This document shows, piece after piece, positions 22,443 through 30,734 of a DNA stretch of 31,958 nt. Each line of letters begins with the position of its first letter. Within the stretch, counting starts at the first letter, position 1. The notes under the pieces are model-generated. The model saw only the letters and a program-made list of their open reading frames with translations, was not told where the DNA came from and did no database searches. A program made the translations under genes and the position numbers. Where the stretch lies: the IMG/VR virus record IMGVR_UViG_3300034062_000966, positions 1 through 31,958 of that record. The stretch is one strand, 5' to 3'. This DNA is from a virus.

Positions 22443-22450
22443 TATTTATG
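22443..22450 (-). promoter_or_regulatory. Late-type promoter box (CATAAATA) for the leftward baseplate operon
   Basis: CATAAATA on the minus strand, one mismatch from consensus, overlapping the gp4 start codon. It lies 30 bases before the gp48-like ATG, the same spacing as the perfect box before gp13, and AGGAA follows in the leader. Confidence 0.5.
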
Positions 22451-22891
22451 TCATACAAAGGTAAATTTAAACCTAAAAACTATCAAAAGTACAAAGGTGA
22501 TCCAACAAAAATTGTATATCGCAGTTTGTTGGAGAGAAGATTCATGGTATACTGTGATGAAACTCCTTCTATACTTGAATGGTCTTCTGAAGAAGTTGTC
22601 GTTCCGTATTTGTCTCCAATCGACAATCGGATGCATCGATATTTCGTAGATTTTTGGATGCGCTACAAAGATAAACATGGCATTATCAAAGCGGTGTTGA
22701 TTGAGGTGAAACCAGATATACAGACACGGGCACCAGAAAGAAAGAATACACCGAACGGCAAACCAACTAGACGATTCATTAATGAAGTAATGACATGGGG
22801 TGTCAATCAAGCCAAATGGAAAGCGGCAACAGAGTATTCACTTGATAGAAATTGGGAATTTAAAATCATAACCGACAAAGATTTGAGATAA
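22448..22891 (+). CDS. 4: Head completion protein gp4
   Basis: 147 residues; T4 gp4 is about 150. gp4 is needed to finish DNA-filled heads so that tails can join. The N-terminus (YKGKFKPKNYQKYKGDPTKI, then VYRSLLERRFM) and the core (WSSEEVVVPYLSPIDNRMHR, YFVDFWMRY) match the family closely. IEVKP and the preceding E/D residues recall a PD-(D/E)xK nuclease core: E in LLERR, D in YFVDF, E-x-K in IEVKP. The catalytic set therefore looks intact. It is the first rightward gene, 34 bases from the divergent gp48-like gene. No Shine-Dalgarno sequence is visible before the ATG. Confidence 0.9.
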   Translation: MSYKGKFKPKNYQKYKGDPTKIVYRSLLERRFMVYCDETPSILEWSSEEVVVPYLSPIDNRMHRYFVDFWMRYKDKHGIIKAVLIEVKPDIQTRAPERKNTPNGKPTRRFINEVMTWGVNQAKWKAATEYSLDRNWEFKIITDKDLR

Positions 22892-23497: not shown

Positions 23498-24085
23498 ATG
23501 TCAACAGATGTAGTTTTAGGAACAGTTACTGTAACAGCCTCACGACCTGCAGATTATTCAATAAAAAATCTACGTGCAAAATTGGGTGCTGTCGCCAGAC
23601 CAAACAATTTTCTAGTAAAAATAAATTGTGCCAAAATACTCACAGGTAGTATTGATGGTACCTTTCAATTTAGATGCGAAAGAGCAGAATTGCCAGGAAG
23701 AACAATTGCAACTTCAGAAGATGTGGGTTCTGGTCCAACAATTAAAGTTGGATATGACATGACGTACAACGATATTCAGTTGTCTGTAGTGTGTGCCCAA
23801 GATATGAAAGAACGTATCTTTTTTGAAAGCTGGATGGACTATATCATAAAACCTTTTGGAGGTGGTGAGCAAGCTGGAACTATTGGATATTATTCAGATT
23901 ATGCATTAGGAAATAAACTTACTGTGACTCAACTTAACGATTTTGGTGAGTCAATATTGACTTATGAATGCATGGATGTTTATCCTATTGCAATTACACC
24001 CATGAATGCGACTTGGGAAGAAACTAACACTTATCAGCGATTTGGCGTAACACTTGCGTATAGATATCATACGTTCAAGAGATAA
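23498..24085 (+). CDS. Tail-tube-fold protein, gp54/gp19-like (tube initiator)
   Basis: 195 residues. ARPNNFLVKI followed by FQFRCERAELPGRTI parallels T4 tube protein gp19 (ARPNLFQVEI, FTFQCKATALPAG). The end (ILTYECMDVYPIAITPMNAT, TYQRFGVTLAYRYH) parallels T4 gp54 (MFTGCIPISVSAPELSYDG, TFDVTFAYRVM). Both T4 proteins share the tube fold. The main gp19 tube gene is expected beside the sheath gene gp18, outside this window. This copy next to hub and tape-measure genes is therefore more likely the tube initiator (gp54 role). AGGAAGA precedes the ATG at a good distance. Confidence 0.75.
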   Translation: MSTDVVLGTVTVTASRPADYSIKNLRAKLGAVARPNNFLVKINCAKILTGSIDGTFQFRCERAELPGRTIATSEDVGSGPTIKVGYDMTYNDIQLSVVCAQDMKERIFFESWMDYIIKPFGGGEQAGTIGYYSDYALGNKLTVTQLNDFGESILTYECMDVYPIAITPMNATWEETNTYQRFGVTLAYRYHTFKR

Positions 24086-24116: not shown

Positions 24117-24863
24117 ATGGCTTTACCAAAAATTAATAACCCAATATTTGAATTGACTTTACCATCAACAGGTGCAACTATCAAATACCGTCCATTCTTA
24201 GTGAAAGAACAAAAGATTCTTTTACTTGCTATGGAATCACAAGATCAAAAATCAGTATTGACAGCAATTAAACAGATTGTCAATAACTGCTCTATTGATG
24301 AAATAGACACAAGCAAAATTCCAACATTTGACTTAGAGTATTTCTTTATGAGACTCAGAGCAAAGTCAATTGGTGAAACAATTGATTTGAATTTGCGTCA
24401 TCCAACTGGATACAATTCTGACGTTCAAGAGTGTGACGGCATTACTAGTGCGACTTTAAATTTGTTAGAAGTTGAAGTTGTAAAGACAGAAAACCACACA
24501 GACAAAATTGTTCTTGATGAAGAAACTGGCATTGGCATTAAGTTGAAGTATCCTAACGTCAACATGGCTATAGATGCTGGTTTAAATACCGATGACAAAC
24601 ATCAAATGGATCTTGCGACAGATGCAATTATTAATAGTATTGAGTATGTGTTTGATAAAGAAAACATATTCAAGAAAGAAGACTACACAAAGAAAGAACT
24701 ATTAGAGTTCATCGAAAACTTGAATCAAGACCAATACTTGAAACTGACAAAGTTCTTTGAGTTGATGCCTAAGTTGAAACACAAAGTAGAGTGGAAATGT
24801 CAGAAATGTGGATGCAGAGATGAAATCACTATGGAAGGTCTGCAAAGTTTTTTCGGATTCTGA
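24117..24863 (+). CDS. 26: Baseplate hub / tail assembly protein gp26 (zero-frame product)
   Basis: 248 residues; T4 gp26 is about 208. gp26 belongs to the T4_baseplate family and is needed for hub assembly. The N-terminus (PKINNPIFELTLPSTGATIK, YRPFLVKEQKILLLAMES) is the family signature. Conserved acidic helices follow, and the end has a zinc-ribbon-like half site, KCQKCGC, near residues 229-234. GGAG lies about eight bases before the ATG. The gene ends F-F-G-F at the TGA at 24861, but the T TTT TTC run just before it and an open -1 frame for 66 more codons point to a second, longer product of 312 residues. Confidence 0.85.
   Translation: MALPKINNPIFELTLPSTGATIKYRPFLVKEQKILLLAMESQDQKSVLTAIKQIVNNCSIDEIDTSKIPTFDLEYFFMRLRAKSIGETIDLNLRHPTGYNSDVQECDGITSATLNLLEVEVVKTENHTDKIVLDEETGIGIKLKYPNVNMAIDAGLNTDDKHQMDLATDAIINSIEYVFDKENIFKKEDYTKKELLEFIENLNQDQYLKLTKFFELMPKLKHKVEWKCQKCGCRDEITMEGLQSFFGF
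24848..24854 (+). promoter_or_regulatory. Programmed -1 frameshift slippery heptamer T TTT TTC
   Basis: In the gp26 frame the codons are AGT TTT TTC GGA TTC TGA, so the run T TTT TTC has the exact X XXY YYZ layout of -1 slippery sites. After slipping one base, reading goes on CGG ATT CTG ATA GGA GGA and stays open to TAA at 25052. The stop in the zero frame is only two codons later. Confidence 0.8.
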
Positions 24864-25054
24864 TAGGAGGAGAAAGCCTAGCTACCTACTATCAAACGAA
24901 TTTTTCTCTAATGCAACATCATAAATATGATTTGGAAACGTTGGAGAATATGATACCCTTTGAACGTGAATTGTATATAATGTTATTATCTCAACATATT
25001 GAGAGTGTAAATGAACAACAGAAATTACAAGCACAACAAAGAGGAAGAAGATAA
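24854..25054 (+). CDS. Minus-one-frame extension of gp26: tail assembly chaperone-like domain
   Basis: 66 codons reached by -1 frameshifting at 24848-24854, giving a fused product of 246 + 66 residues. The peptide begins RILIGGESLATYYQTNFSLM and continues QHHKYDLETLENMIPFEREL, then YIMLLSQHIE. The pattern (NF-x-L-M-x-x-H-x-Y-x-L-x-x-L-x-x-M-x-P-[FW]-E-R-E) resembles T-domains of lambda-type GT tail chaperones. It has no credible start of its own: AGGAGG at 24865-24870 has no start codon in range, and the first in-frame ATG (24911) is 40 bases away. The stop lies directly before the ATG of the next gene at 25055. In T4 the related job may belong to gp51. Confidence 0.72.
   Translation, partial: RILIGGESLATYYQTNFSLMQHHKYDLETLENMIPFERELYIMLLSQHIESVNEQQKLQAQQRGRR
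24861..24894 (+). other. Possible frameshift-stimulating stem-loop
   Basis: TGATAG (24861-24866) can pair with CTATCA (24889-24894). After one G-A mismatch, AGG (24868-24870) pairs with CCT (24885-24887). The loop holds a small inner AGC/GCT stem. The stem begins 6 bases after the slippery heptamer, within the usual 5-9 base spacing. Alternative pairings of TAGG with CCTA exist, so the exact fold is uncertain. Confidence 0.5.
24920..24927 (+). promoter_or_regulatory. Weak late-box match (CATAAATA) before the holin-like and tape-measure genes
   Basis: One mismatch from TATAAATA, within the -1 frame extension and 128 bases before the holin-like start. It could boost the two large downstream genes. 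It also encodes part of the extension (HHKY), so the match may be coincidental. Confidence 0.3.
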
Positions 25055-25552
25055 ATGGCTACGCAAAAAGAATACGAAAAACTGAGTGATAGCGATAAGA
25101 AAAAAGAAGATTGGATGAACGCTAAGTGGCGTCCAATGATGGGTTGGATTTATATGCTAACCTGTGTAACAGACTTCATTATCTTTCCTGTATTATGGTC
25201 TATACTACAAGCCTCGCTGAAACAACCTGTGACTGCATGGCAACCAATCACCCTGCAGGGCGCAGGCTTGTTTCATCTCTCTATGGGTGCTATTATTGGT
25301 GTTGCGGCTTTCGGCCGTACGCAAGAGAAACTAGCAGGAGCAAACAATGGTGGAATGCAACCCATAGGACAAAGCGTGACAACAACATATGGCTCCCATG
25401 GGTCAATGGGAATGTCATCCCCATCATCATTTAATAGCGCACCATCAAGTATGGGTATGGGAAGCAACTCAATGGGAATGTCAAAACCTGCAACTGGAAA
25501 GTCAGCAAGATTCGCAGAAGCAGACCCAGACTCTGTATTCGACAGAGGGTAA
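25055..25552 (+). CDS. Holin-like membrane protein
   Basis: 165 residues. A charged N-terminus (KLSDSDKKKEDWMNAKWRPM) is followed by a membrane segment at about 29-50 (MGWIYMLTCVTDFIIFPVLW). A second hydrophobic stretch (about 68-86) contains LQGAGLFHLSMGAIIGVAAF, then GRTQEKL. The W-R-P-M...DFIIFP...LTLQGAGLFH...GRTQEK pattern resembles the 3TM holin family of gene transfer agents and tailed phages. The last 75 residues are Ser/Gly/Met-rich and look disordered. GAGGAAG precedes the ATG, and the stop is seven bases before the tape-measure gene. A holin would release lysozyme at lysis. A virion membrane-associated role is an alternative, because it lies between chaperone and tape measure. Confidence 0.6.
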   Translation: MATQKEYEKLSDSDKKKEDWMNAKWRPMMGWIYMLTCVTDFIIFPVLWSILQASLKQPVTAWQPITLQGAGLFHLSMGAIIGVAAFGRTQEKLAGANNGGMQPIGQSVTTTYGSHGSMGMSSPSSFNSAPSSMGMGSNSMGMSKPATGKSARFAEADPDSVFDRG

Positions 25553-25559
25553 TTAATAT

Positions 25560-28500
25560 ATGGCAAATGTAGGATACGCAAGCGCACTCGGTGGCATCGC
25601 AAAAGATGCTATTAGTGGTGCCGGAAAAGGATTCGTTGGCGGCTTAAAAGGCGCAATGATGAGTGAGGCGCCAGGTCTTACTGGAGCATACGCTTTCGGA
25701 AAAGAACTAAAGAATCGTGCAAACGCACCGAAGACAACAAGTTCTGGACCACTTTCATCGGGCGGATCATCTAATCAGTCTTCTAATTCATCTTCCAGTT
25801 CAGCTATGGGAGGTGGTTTAACTGCGGGCATATTTACAGTTGCTGGTCAACAAAAACAATCTAATGTCATTAATCTTGAGCAAGTTAGACAACTACGTCA
25901 ATTAAACAACAATGTAATTAATCAATCTAAACTTATTGCGTTTCAAGTCAATGAAGCAAAAAGAAAAGAATTGTTTGCAGAAGAACTTGCAAATGAACAA
26001 GCATTGCGTGATGATAAACTTTTAAACGCAATTCAAAATATTGGTGGTAATGGTAAGGGCGATAGAGGTGGTGCTGGCGGTGAAACAGAGGGAGACAGCG
26101 GAGGCACACTTGCATTTGTTTCTGGTTTGGTATTTAAAAGAATTCTCACTACAGTAATAACTGCGGTTGTTAGACACCCTTACGTTGCTGGTGGTCTTGC
26201 ACTTGGCGCTGGTGTGGCTGCGGCCGCAGCCGCCGCAAGAAATAGACCTGCTCCTCCAGCATCTACTGTCACAGGACGTGATGCACAAAACGATCCAGCA
26301 AATGCGGCAAGAAGAGCCAAAGATATGCAGGCAACTGGTAGAACAATTCCAAGACCAGCTGACTACGTTCCTAAACCAGGCGAAAATCGTGGGTATAGCC
26401 AAAATCAATCAAGAGCAAGACTAGCAGAACAGCAAAAGTGGGATGCGTTAAATAAAGGCACACATGACCCAGTTACGGGTATGCCGAAAAATAGTATCAT
26501 AATGAAACCTCCTGCAACAGGAGTAGTTAGTAGTAAATTCGGTGTACGAAAAGACCCTAAAACAGGAAAAGATACACAACATAATGGCGTTGATATTGCT
26601 ATGCCTATGGGCACTTCAGTAACGCCTGTTGCGCCAGGAAAAGTTGTTGCAGTTACAACAAGTAAAGACGCAGGAACATATGTTAGTGTTCAACATGCCG
26701 ATGGAAAAATTAGTGAGTATATGCATCTACAGAGAACATCTGTTAAAATTGGAGATGCAGTTGATGGCTCTACAGAAATTGGAAAAAGTGGCGGTGCAGT
26801 AGGTGATCCTGGTGCAGGAAAATCAACAGGTCCACATTTACATTTACAGATTAGAGATTCTGCTACTAATAAATTTATTGATCCCGTTTCATTGCCCGGT
26901 CTAACACATTTAGTTGCTGGCGCTAGTGTTAAAGGAACAGATTCTACTCCAGTACTAAAAGGACCCGTTTCACAAGATGCTCAACGAAAAAGACGTAATG
27001 ACGCATATCGTGCTGTAGGAACAGATTTTAATGTCATCACAAATTATGATGGAATGCCGAATGTTCTTAAAGATAAAGGACTAAGTAAAAAATCTACTTC
27101 AGCATACGATCAAATATTGGCCGCATTCTCTGCACCATTTGACAAAAATAAATATGGTCCTGGTATAAAACTAGCCGCTGGCGCTGGATTTAAACTTGAT
27201 GGCGGCGGTGGCGGTACAACAATTAAAGATGATGCACCTGTGTCTGTTCACGATAAAAAAGCATTTGAACAAGATGCAAAGATTGCAAAATTGCAAGGCC
27301 TTGATGTAGGAAATGGCTCTGTCAATAAGAGCGTTGCTGGATCTTACGGCAAAGCACTGAACACACAAGCGTTCAAACCGCTATTCCGTTCTAACAGCGA
27401 CATTATTGCACAAGTAAACAAAACGTTCTTACAGCAGTTTAGAAGTACTGCAACAGCCGCATTCACGCAAGCAATAACAAAAGGTTTATTCCCTAAAGGT
27501 GTTGGCGTATCATTTAGTCAAGCTAGTCAAGACGATATGTATCGTGGCCAGCAACTGCAAAAGATTTTTGGGACAAGCGATAAAATCAGTAGTGCTACAA
27601 CCAAACTGTTAGGTAAACAGTATGGCCCAATGTTTGCACCACTCTTTGATAATCTTGCACAAGGATATCTAGAAGTTGGTTCTAGAATGGCAGGGAAAGC
27701 AATTTTCCAAGGCATCGGTGGATTAGACGCAAAAGAAACCCAAGGTATCATGGGGCAAGTTCTTGGGAACTATGCCGCAGGAAATAAAAAATTAGCATTT
27801 GAACAATTATTGTTCGGTGCATCTGGTGGTGCAAAGAGTGGTATTGCATTGGGTCCAGAAACTCTTTTCGCTAAGTATGGTTTTGCTAATCCAATGGAAG
27901 GCATCTCATACTTTGCAAGCGCATTGGGTGAAAGAGCGACACAACCATTTGCAAAATTAATGGGCGCAGATGATAGAAATAAATCTGTAATATTTGATCC
28001 TAGAACTAAACAATATGTGTATGCTGATAGTGGTGCGCCTGCAAGTCAAGCAGACATTAGGGCGGCTGGTGCAGATTACGGTGGTCGTGTAAGTCAGACT
28101 CCAATGTTCGGCCCAGGTATGAACAATTATGGTATGCCGGGAGCACCATATCAAACGACTGCTGGTGTAAGAGGAACATATCAGATTAATAATTCTGGTG
28201 CTTACAGTCAAATATTAAATGCTAGACCGGGACAAGAAATATCAAGAGCGCAAGCATTCGGATTAACAGACCAACAGCAAGCCGCTGGTGGTGCTAGGTT
28301 AATTGCTGAACAAAATACAATGCTTAGAGCGCAAGGTGAAGTACAAAATAAACAATTAGAACAACAGGCTAAGTTAGCAGAAGAAGCCGCAAAGCGTGAA
28401 TTTGATATTGCAAGTAAACAGGCATCTAGTGAAGCAGAAATGGCTTCAGCACAAGCGGCATACGATAAAGCATTGAATGAAGCTAAGACTAGCACAGATA

Positions 28501-30734
28501 GAGTAGATACTGATAGAGTCATTGCAAAGTTAGATCAAGTTGGTGGTAAACCTTCTGGTGGTGGAACACAAGTTTTAGATAAAGATGGAAATCCTGTTAC
28601 CAGAAGGTCAGGTCAGTTGTTCGGTCAAAGTTATGATAAAGAAACTGGTCTAGCAATTAATGATCCAATGAAAGATATTGGAAACTTTGCATTTGACATG
28701 GCTAAAAACTTTGCTGGTCAGCAGTTGACTAAAGACATTAAGAACCCATATGCTCAGATGATTGCAAACTTTGCAATTCAAAAAGGTCTGAATGTTGTCA
28801 CAGATAAATTTCTTTCGCCAGTATTAGATAAAGGTGTAGACTTTCTAGTAGATAAGGGCGGCAGTTTCATAATGGATACTGCTATACCTTGGGTCACAAA
28901 GCTATTTGGTTTTGCTGATGGTGGCGTTGTAACTAAAGCAACTCCTGGTGTTTTCGGTGAAGCTGGCGCTGAAGCTATTATTCCTCTTGCAAATCCAACT
29001 GCAACAAAAGCATTGTCTGCGGCTATGGGTACAGACAAGACACTTGCATCATTGGGCGACCAAACAGACTTGCTAACAAGCATCGATGGTTCTCTCAGAA
29101 GAATTTCGGGGCAAGGAACATCATCTGGTACTGGACTCTCATTCGATAGTGGTCTAGGTGGTCTTTATGGTGGTAGTGGAGGCGGAAGCATATCTAGCGG
29201 TGGTGGTAGTGTAATAGTCAACGGTGTTGCTAGATCAAGACAGACACAACAAAAGCCATCAACGATGGATTACGTGACTGCAATTGGCGGTTCTTTATTG
29301 AAGAGTTTTGCAATCAATAAAGGCATCGGCATGGCATCAACAGCACTATTTGGTGCTACGCCAGGTGTGCTTGCTGGAAATGCACTTATCTCTGCTGGAT
29401 TCCCTACTCTCGGAACAATGCTCGGTGGTACAGTCGCAACAGGTACTGGATTGACAGCAGGAGCCGCTGGCGTTACTGGATTAACAGCGGGTGGTGGTGG
29501 CATAGGACTTACAGCAGGATCAGCGTCTTTAGGAGGCACTCTCGGAAGTAGCGTTGCCGCAATTGAAACTGGTGTTGCGGCATCTACTGCGGCTACTACA
29601 ACTGGTGCGGCGGCCGCAGGCGGTTCTACTATTGGCGCATCTCTAGCCGCGGCCGCACCATATGTATTGGCAGCCGTCGCTGTGTATATGATTGTGGATT
29701 CTGTATATGGCGGGGGCGGTGGTTCTGCACCTCCACCAAAAGAGCCTAAGTATCATGCTGGAATATATGTAGCAGGAAATAACAACATCAATGCAATTGC
29801 GCCTATACTTGAAACAGTTGATTATCATGCGCCACCTGATGTGTATAAAACAATTGCATATGGACTGTTGAGAGTAGCATTCAATGCAACTAAGTCATCA
29901 GAAGCTGTTACTAACATGACAGCATCATATGATTTCATTTACTTGAAAGTTCAGTTTGATAAGATATCAATGATTGTTGGTAAAGGAGCGCCTAATTCAT
30001 CATACACTCAAGATGGTGCAACAGATACATTAAGTTGGCCAGCACCTAGCGAAGGCACAAACCTTAACGCAATCGCAAAAGATATTATTACTTGGGTTAG
30101 AGATGACTTTAAGAAACTTGCAAAAGCTGAAAATTTAAGTAAGTTAGATACAGCCGCAGAAGGTTTAGGAACATATACACTTGATGAAATTAGTAAAGGA
30201 CTTATTCCCGATTTACAACGTGGTAAGTATAAACTAGACCAGAGTAAAGAAAAGGGAATATATGCAAACAATGTTGCAGAGTCAAATCGTATCGCTGAAC
30301 TAATTAACACAGCCGCCACAAAAGCCGCTTACATATCATCAGCAACGGCCGCAGAGTATGATTCGGATGGTAACATAACAAAAGAAGCAACACCGGGTGG
30401 TGAGAATATGGTGTATAGTATGAAACAAGGAAAGTTTGTTAAGAATCCTTTTGGACCTGATGCAATACTTCTCGATCAAAGTGATCGTCCTGTATACAAT
30501 CTTGAAGGAACATCAGCCGGTTTAACTGTTGACGATTTTGCTAGTGCATCTGTTGTTGGTTCTAACAGACCAGCAAACATATTGGCTGATACTCCAGCAA
30601 GTGGTGGATCAACAAGTAATATAGTTGTAGGCCCAACATCAACTAAAGTCGATAACTCTGCTATCACAAATTATTATACACCGACAAATGGAATAATTGA
30701 CGTTGTTAGGGGCGCAACTCCACAAGTTGGATAA
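25560..30734 (+). CDS. Tape-measure-like tail protein with M23 peptidase domain
   Basis: 1724 residues. The N-terminal 60 residues are Gly/Ala-rich; QNDPANAARRAKD and a hydrophobic stretch at about 197-222 follow. Residues about 318-450 form an M23 (LytM-type) endopeptidase: H341-N-G-V-D345, H389 in YMHL, and H426-L-H428, together the full metal-binding and catalytic set, cutting peptidoglycan cross-bridges. Near 905-970 is a coiled coil (KQLEQQAKLAEEAAKREFDI). At 1118-1145, FADGGVVTKATPGVFGEAGA, then EAIIPLAN, is the classic tape-measure motif. A second hydrophobic segment lies at about 1363-1383. Such proteins set tail length inside the tube and reach the host envelope on ejection. T4 uses gp29 (590 residues). 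AGAGGG precedes the start. Low-complexity Ala tracts are unusually GC-rich. Confidence 0.82.
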   Translation: MANVGYASALGGIAKDAISGAGKGFVGGLKGAMMSEAPGLTGAYAFGKELKNRANAPKTTSSGPLSSGGSSNQSSNSSSSSAMGGGLTAGIFTVAGQQKQSNVINLEQVRQLRQLNNNVINQSKLIAFQVNEAKRKELFAEELANEQALRDDKLLNAIQNIGGNGKGDRGGAGGETEGDSGGTLAFVSGLVFKRILTTVITAVVRHPYVAGGLALGAGVAAAAAAARNRPAPPASTVTGRDAQNDPANAARRAKDMQATGRTIPRPADYVPKPGENRGYSQNQSRARLAEQQKWDALNKGTHDPVTGMPKNSIIMKPPATGVVSSKFGVRKDPKTGKDTQHNGVDIAMPMGTSVTPVAPGKVVAVTTSKDAGTYVSVQHADGKISEYMHLQRTSVKIGDAVDGSTEIGKSGGAVGDPGAGKSTGPHLHLQIRDSATNKFIDPVSLPGLTHLVAGASVKGTDSTPVLKGPVSQDAQRKRRNDAYRAVGTDFNVITNYDGMPNVLKDKGLSKKSTSAYDQILAAFSAPFDKNKYGPGIKLAAGAGFKLDGGGGGTTIKDDAPVSVHDKKAFEQDAKIAKLQGLDVGNGSVNKSVAGSYGKALNTQAFKPLFRSNSDIIAQVNKTFLQQFRSTATAAFTQAITKGLFPKGVGVSFSQASQDDMYRGQQLQKIFGTSDKISSATTKLLGKQYGPMFAPLFDNLAQGYLEVGSRMAGKAIFQGIGGLDAKETQGIMGQVLGNYAAGNKKLAFEQLLFGASGGAKSGIALGPETLFAKYGFANPMEGISYFASALGERATQPFAKLMGADDRNKSVIFDPRTKQYVYADSGAPASQADIRAAGADYGGRVSQTPMFGPGMNNYGMPGAPYQTTAGVRGTYQINNSGAYSQILNARPGQEISRAQAFGLTDQQQAAGGARLIAEQNTMLRAQGEVQNKQLEQQAKLAEEAAKREFDIASKQASSEAEMASAQAAYDKALNEAKTSTDRVDTDRVIAKLDQVGGKPSGGGTQVLDKDGNPVTRRSGQLFGQSYDKETGLAINDPMKDIGNFAFDMAKNFAGQQLTKDIKNPYAQMIANFAIQKGLNVVTDKFLSPVLDKGVDFLVDKGGSFIMDTAIPWVTKLFGFADGGVVTKATPGVFGEAGAEAIIPLANPTATKALSAAMGTDKTLASLGDQTDLLTSIDGSLRRISGQGTSSGTGLSFDSGLGGLYGGSGGGSISSGGGSVIVNGVARSRQTQQKPSTMDYVTAIGGSLLKSFAINKGIGMASTALFGATPGVLAGNALISAGFPTLGTMLGGTVATGTGLTAGAAGVTGLTAGGGGIGLTAGSASLGGTLGSSVAAIETGVAASTAATTTGAAAAGGSTIGASLAAAAPYVLAAVAVYMIVDSVYGGGGGSAPPPKEPKYHAGIYVAGNNNINAIAPILETVDYHAPPDVYKTIAYGLLRVAFNATKSSEAVTNMTASYDFIYLKVQFDKISMIVGKGAPNSSYTQDGATDTLSWPAPSEGTNLNAIAKDIITWVRDDFKKLAKAENLSKLDTAAEGLGTYTLDEISKGLIPDLQRGKYKLDQSKEKGIYANNVAESNRIAELINTAATKAAYISSATAAEYDSDGNITKEATPGGENMVYSMKQGKFVKNPFGPDAILLDQSDRPVYNLEGTSAGLTVDDFASASVVGSNRPANILADTPASGGSTSNIVVGPTSTKVDNSAITNYYTPTNGIIDVVRGATPQVG

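Follow-up and report, generated by a model that had tools for sequence, protein, structure and literature searches.

The window analysed here is the whole 31,958-nucleotide stretch of IMG/VR virus record IMGVR_UViG_3300034062_000966 (positions 1 to 31,958). A gene of the T4 gp26 family ends in it within a short overlap of two reading frames, close to a tail tube gene and a very long ORF. The features considered below are as follows.

23498-24085, + strand: tail tube protein (phrog_45 'tail tube', 3.5e-34), just upstream of gp26 and the expected partner of its long form
24117-24863, + strand: gp26-family gene (T4_baseplate; PF12322, E 5.3e-59; phrog_150, 3.8e-63), 248-aa short form, TAC-N-like; AlphaFold2 model with mean pLDDT 91.9
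24848-24854, + strand: slippery heptamer T_TTT_TTC in the gp26 frame (codons TTT 24849-24851 and TTC 24852-24854)
24854-25054, + strand: extension read in the −1 frame, 66 codons followed by a stop (phrog_634, 1.2e-25; C-terminus of phrog_150)
24861-24863, + strand: 0-frame stop of gp26, six bases 3' of the heptamer
24863-24865, + strand: ATA in place of the overlapping ATG of relatives (TGATAGG in the window, TGATGGG at loci L017, L021, L028 and L036)
25560-30734, + strand: 1724-aa ORF with an M23 peptidase domain (PF01551, 2.4e-20), candidate tape measure by position

The 3' end of gp26 reads AGT TTT TTC GGA TTC TGA. The −1 frame is open throughout from CGG (24854) to TAA (25052-25054) and adjoins the ATG at 25055; both the in-frame heptamer and the 66-codon frame are thus where the original prediction placed them. 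The predicted fusion of gp26 and extension is 312 aa long, with junction S-F-F-R-I-L. The window is AT-rich and its + strand contains TTTTTTC at six places, so that the heptamer by itself is unsurprising and it is its conservation rather than its presence that carries weight. An assembly error was rejected as the source of the arrangement, which recurs in numerous independent contigs obtained from different samples.

No tape-measure profile matched the 1724-aa ORF of the window itself, whereas the syntenic long ORFs of phiM19 (1.8e-5), P-HM1 (4.8e-13) and S-SM2 (2.2e-5) match tape-measure PHROGs weakly. The long tape measure that had been noted nearby is a candidate, assigned in the window by position. 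The M23 peptidase domain is internal to this candidate (residues 340-435), and in P-HM1 the ORF at the same place is of peptidase M15 type. A small gene directly 3' of the extension (25055-25552), matching GTA_holin_3TM (PF11351, 4.8e-6) and a holin PHROG, separates the chaperone gene from the candidate tape measure. Further upstream, a T4 gp4-like head closure protein (22448-22891) gave a match to PF08722, the N-terminal fold of the TnsA endonuclease (6.5e-21).

Conservation of the heptamer and of the −1 frame

Related loci were retrieved using gp26 peptides that exclude the heptamer, annotated phages were added, and the extension was located by profile search downstream of gp26. This yielded 212 loci with a match, and 2 further gp26 loci were incomplete. 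At all 212 loci the extension occupies the −1 frame, and the overlap contains T TTT TTH at 210 of them (T TTT TTC at 189, T TTT TTT at 18 and T TTT TTA at 3), with 0-2 codons between heptamer and 0-frame stop in 206 of the 210. The two loci devoid of a heptamer, L088 and L091, are both from Ackermannviridae. The extension profile found no match at the loci of Vibrio phage K364, Aeromonas phage TSW001 and T4-type phage PG7, the last of which has a separate gene 51. Comparing the gp26 loci, as had been suggested, thus revealed neither a general loss of the heptamer nor, at the 212 loci, a ruined frame.

To allow for kinship, gp26 proteins were clustered at 60% identity into 36 groups with one representative each. 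Under a strict test, 35 of the 36 representatives carry the heptamer, while codon usage alone would give 13.4 (the probabilities multiply to about 1e-19), although these counts and probabilities are guides rather than exact values because the loci are mutually related. The remaining representative, L161, has the heptamer too, followed by a longer 0-frame tail.

A synonymous-site analysis of the fused reading frame over 89 sequence pairs placed the maximum of conservation at codons 243-251, that is, at the heptamer (528 observed against 416.8 expected, z 10.0), part of the signal at codons 247-250 being due to the overlap of the two frames. The TTT codon is identical in 89 of 89 pairs and the TTC codon in 88 of 89, against 66.6 expected. 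Constraint returns to background just 3' of the 0-frame stop, and a comparable level is found elsewhere in the fused gene only at its 5' end, the heptamer region being the strongest. A second strongly conserved nucleotide stretch lies within the extension at 24909-24931, about 65-70 bases 3' of the heptamer. Its codons CAT and AAA each score a z of about 4.5, and no structure was found there.

The stem-loop originally proposed to start 6-7 bases after the heptamer was not supported, as folding in the window was no better than that of shuffled sequence (z −0.3 to −1.7) and no conserved stimulatory structure was found across relatives. Single strong hairpins were seen in S-PM2 (z −3.3) and P-HM1 (z −3.1). 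A downstream stimulatory structure is not strictly required at −1 sites of the X_XXY_YYZ type.

Start codons and alternative origins of the extension

In the window, the stretch from the heptamer to the conserved domain is free of ATG, GTG and TTG, and the first ATG (24911-24913) falls inside this domain. The window and its nearest relatives read TGATAGG, the overlapping ATG being absent while heptamer and frame are retained. An AGGAGG at 24865-24870 was considered as a Shine-Dalgarno site and rejected, having no start at a usable distance and being lost in close relatives. Over 183 distinct junctions, an in-frame ATG precedes the domain in 131, only GTG or TTG in 30 and none of the three in 22. 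Shine-Dalgarno-like motifs accompany only 4 of 182 possible extension starts, compared with 152 of 209 for gp26 and 64 of 193 for the genes that follow. The contention that the extension has no usable start of its own thus applies to the clade of the window but not to every relative, and what would have counted against a frameshift there, a normal start with a ribosome-binding site, is found as far as the ATG goes but hardly ever with the binding site.

Annotations of this stretch differ. It is unannotated in ACG-2014d, ACG-2014b and S-MbCM100, in which no start precedes the domain, as well as in S-CAM7, where an ATG is present. It appears as a CDS of its own in P-HM1, S-PM2, S-SM2, phiM19, Mendera, K364 and KVP40. 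None of the deposited records examined has the two frames joined.

A gp51-like extension also follows gp26 in the −1 frame in Ackermannviridae (Kuttervirus and Taipeivirus; L088 3223-3405, L091 3289-3462 and L242-L256), at loci with neither a slippery heptamer nor an upstream ATG, GTG or TTG start. The gp26/extension junction of these loci, GARATTTTCATTTAATTTTTGAAATTG, hardly varies; in place of their ATT, Limestonevirus (L257) carries ATG (TAATG vs TAATT). An AUU start or another form of recoding is possible in these phages.

The annotated CDSs, together with the ATG present at most distinct junctions and the stop-start overlaps (TGATG or TAATG) seen at several loci, would suit a separate small gene, the cyanophage 'gp51', with an overlapping or nearby start codon used through coupling or re-initiation. 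Such a gene would nevertheless leave the invariant heptamer and its peak of synonymous constraint unexplained, and it is difficult to reconcile with the scarcity of Shine-Dalgarno-like motifs, with the clade of the window and other lineages that have no candidate start, with ACG-2014d, ACG-2014b and S-MbCM100, which have neither start nor annotated gene, and with T4 gp51, itself a fusion (see below). We consider this origin very unlikely. Because an ATG is present in most relatives, in some cases as a TGATG overlap with the stop, those phages could additionally make a gp51-like peptide on its own.

The run of six T, extended to seven in 18 of 210 loci, could alternatively cause transcriptional rather than ribosomal slippage, giving mRNAs with one base more or less. 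In bacteria, transcriptional slippage usually requires longer runs, of about eight or more. The run is moreover nearly always closed by a C in register with the frame, as X_XXY_YYZ allows, and shows no drift toward greater length over the 210 loci, making this route very improbable. It might also be argued that the FF pair, which is invariant across the family alignment, is kept for protein reasons, the heptamer following from codon usage and the extension being a decaying remnant. Yet the choice of codons is as invariant as the residues, the heptamer occurs at only 4 of 45 other Phe-Phe pairs within the same genes, and the extension is conserved in phages as varied as cyanophages, Vibrio phages, rhizobial phages and those of T4 type, all of which renders this explanation extremely improbable. 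By contrast, we are highly confident that gp26 yields a short and a long tail assembly chaperone through −1 slippage at T_TTT_TTC, in the manner of lambda G and GT. This reading draws together the conserved heptamer and frame, the synonymous peak, the missing starts, the predicted fold of gp26 and the fusion found in T4 gp51.

Relation to T4 gp51 and to tail assembly chaperones

In profile searches, the extension matches phrog_634, 'baseplate hub assembly catalyst' (gp51). T4 gp51 (249 aa) matches PF12322 over residues 1-201 (3.9e-52) and phrog_634 over residues 147-246. Judged by these profiles, T4 gp51 is a gp26 paralogue with the extension fused in frame, and the extension of the window is homologous to its C-terminal domain. 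The junctions align as well, window ...LQSFF-RILIGGESLATYYQTNFSL... against T4 gp51, and the KVP40 annotation likens a small ORF to a 40-residue stretch at the T4 gp51 C-terminus. The comparison with gp51 proposed at the outset was thus borne out for both gp26 and extension, whereas the homology found for the latter, at first called a T-like domain, is with the gp51 C-terminal domain rather than with lambda T.

Whole records, where fully searched, contain one PF12322 gene in the single-gene layout and two in T4 and six other T4-type records (in that of L225, the short copy is split across the record ends). In the two-copy records, the extension family matches the second PF12322 gene, in frame. 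Phylogenetic analysis resolved the gp51s, the T4-type gp26s and the single-copy gp26s as three groups, the single-copy one weakly supported (85/49). Such a tree, which is unrooted, fits a duplication whose direction we infer.

The AlphaFold2 model of gp26 was compared with known structures, candidates from Foldseek being realigned to obtain Z scores. For residues 1-94 the top PDB matches were 3FGX (Z 8.2), 2OB9 (Z 7.6) and 3KLU (Z 7.3), with 84-85 residues aligned, followed by 5IR0 (Z 5.5) and 6VEK (Z 4.4). The first three, RBSTP2171, HK97 gp13 and YqbN respectively, are solved tail assembly chaperones (PMC9603447). As the Foldseek E-values of these chaperone matches are not significant (1.4 to 3.7) and a Z near 8 is about the level that unrelated models can reach, support for the fold comes from the ranking of the proteins. 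The likeness concerns the predicted fold of residues 1-94, at an identity of about 5-11%, and gp26 continues for about 150 residues beyond that part. A tail assembly chaperone-like fold of gp26 is thus supported by modelling. The gp51 model gave neither a chaperone match nor any informative structural match, and gp26 and gp51 profiles searched against the PDB by sequence found no relative.

The lambda tail assembly chaperones G and GT are produced by a −1 frameshift (Levin 1993, Xu 2004 and Xu 2014, via PMC5009743). The window shares with them a short gene that ends in a heptamer and, as predicted, a short form and a −1 long form; its gene follows a tail tube gene and precedes, after the small holin-like gene, a long ORF that is the candidate tape measure by position. 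The lambda heptamer is GGGAAAG and hence differs from that of the window; gp26 is longer than G and has added domains, its extension resembles T4 gp51, and the likeness to lambda is one of layout. T4 gp26 and gp51 are counted among the hub assembly chaperones; gp51 is described as essential, of unknown function and absent from the particle, and reports on gp26 conflict (PMC3004832). T4 and the window have in common the protein families and, as predicted for the window, a pair of products, one short and one extended C-terminally; T4-type phages encode them by two genes, whereas in the window and its cyanophage-type relatives a single gene carries a slippery site.

We predict that the majority of ribosomes would stop at 24863 and release the 248-aa chaperone, while a fraction would slip back one base at T_TTT_TTC and add 66 codons, giving the 312-aa gp26-gp51 fusion. 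Both forms would come from one mRNA, the 312-aa form being the minor one. Like lambda gpG and gpGT, they would jointly cover the tape measure and bring in subunits of the tube. Slippage, its rate, tape-measure coating and tube-subunit recruitment are what we infer here; that gp26 and gp26-51 would function like G and GT follows from the relation to gp51, the copy numbers and the predicted fold. In T4 and its close relatives, each of the two equivalent products has its own gene, 26 for the short form and 51 for the fused one.

Probable routes to the chaperone pair across T4-like phages

That T4 gp26/gp51 are connected with tail assembly chaperones, at first thought undescribed, is already known from Vladimirov, Gautam and Davidson 2022 as presented in papers citing it. 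According to the PRFect article (PMC10885494), that study describes some T4-like phages in which a short gene is accompanied by a long, fused one; the article on phage Adele (PMC12846349) refers to it regarding poly-T slippery sites in the chaperone genes of T4-like phages. Our analysis adds, from sequence comparison, a near-universal predicted frameshift signal in cyanophage-type relatives, the breadth of which may or may not be covered by Vladimirov et al. Vandenendeviridae and Andersonviridae (phage Adele, PMC12846349) also have a conserved poly-T site, GTTTTT, and a −1 extension upstream of the tape measure gene; they are a different phage lineage, and the likeness is one of site and layout.

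E. coli phage T4 would have replaced the frameshift by separate genes 26 and 51. Rather tentatively, the frameshifted single gene could be the common, possibly ancestral state among members of the T4 superfamily other than the T4-type phages (Kyanoviridae, KVP40-like, rhizobial, Stenotrophomonas and Acidovorax phages). T4 gp51 would therefore be a fixed, duplicated frameshift product, and hundreds of sequenced cyanophages would have their long chaperone missing or misannotated, a situation perhaps unreported for cyanophages.

Slippage can be tested simply in laboratory phages. The finding would correct how a conserved part of the gene, omitted or called separately in many cyanophage genomes, is annotated, and it suggests an identity for T4 gp51, probably the long form of the chaperone. 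One virus superfamily would thus have taken two routes to the same chaperone pair, ribosome slippage or gene duplication.
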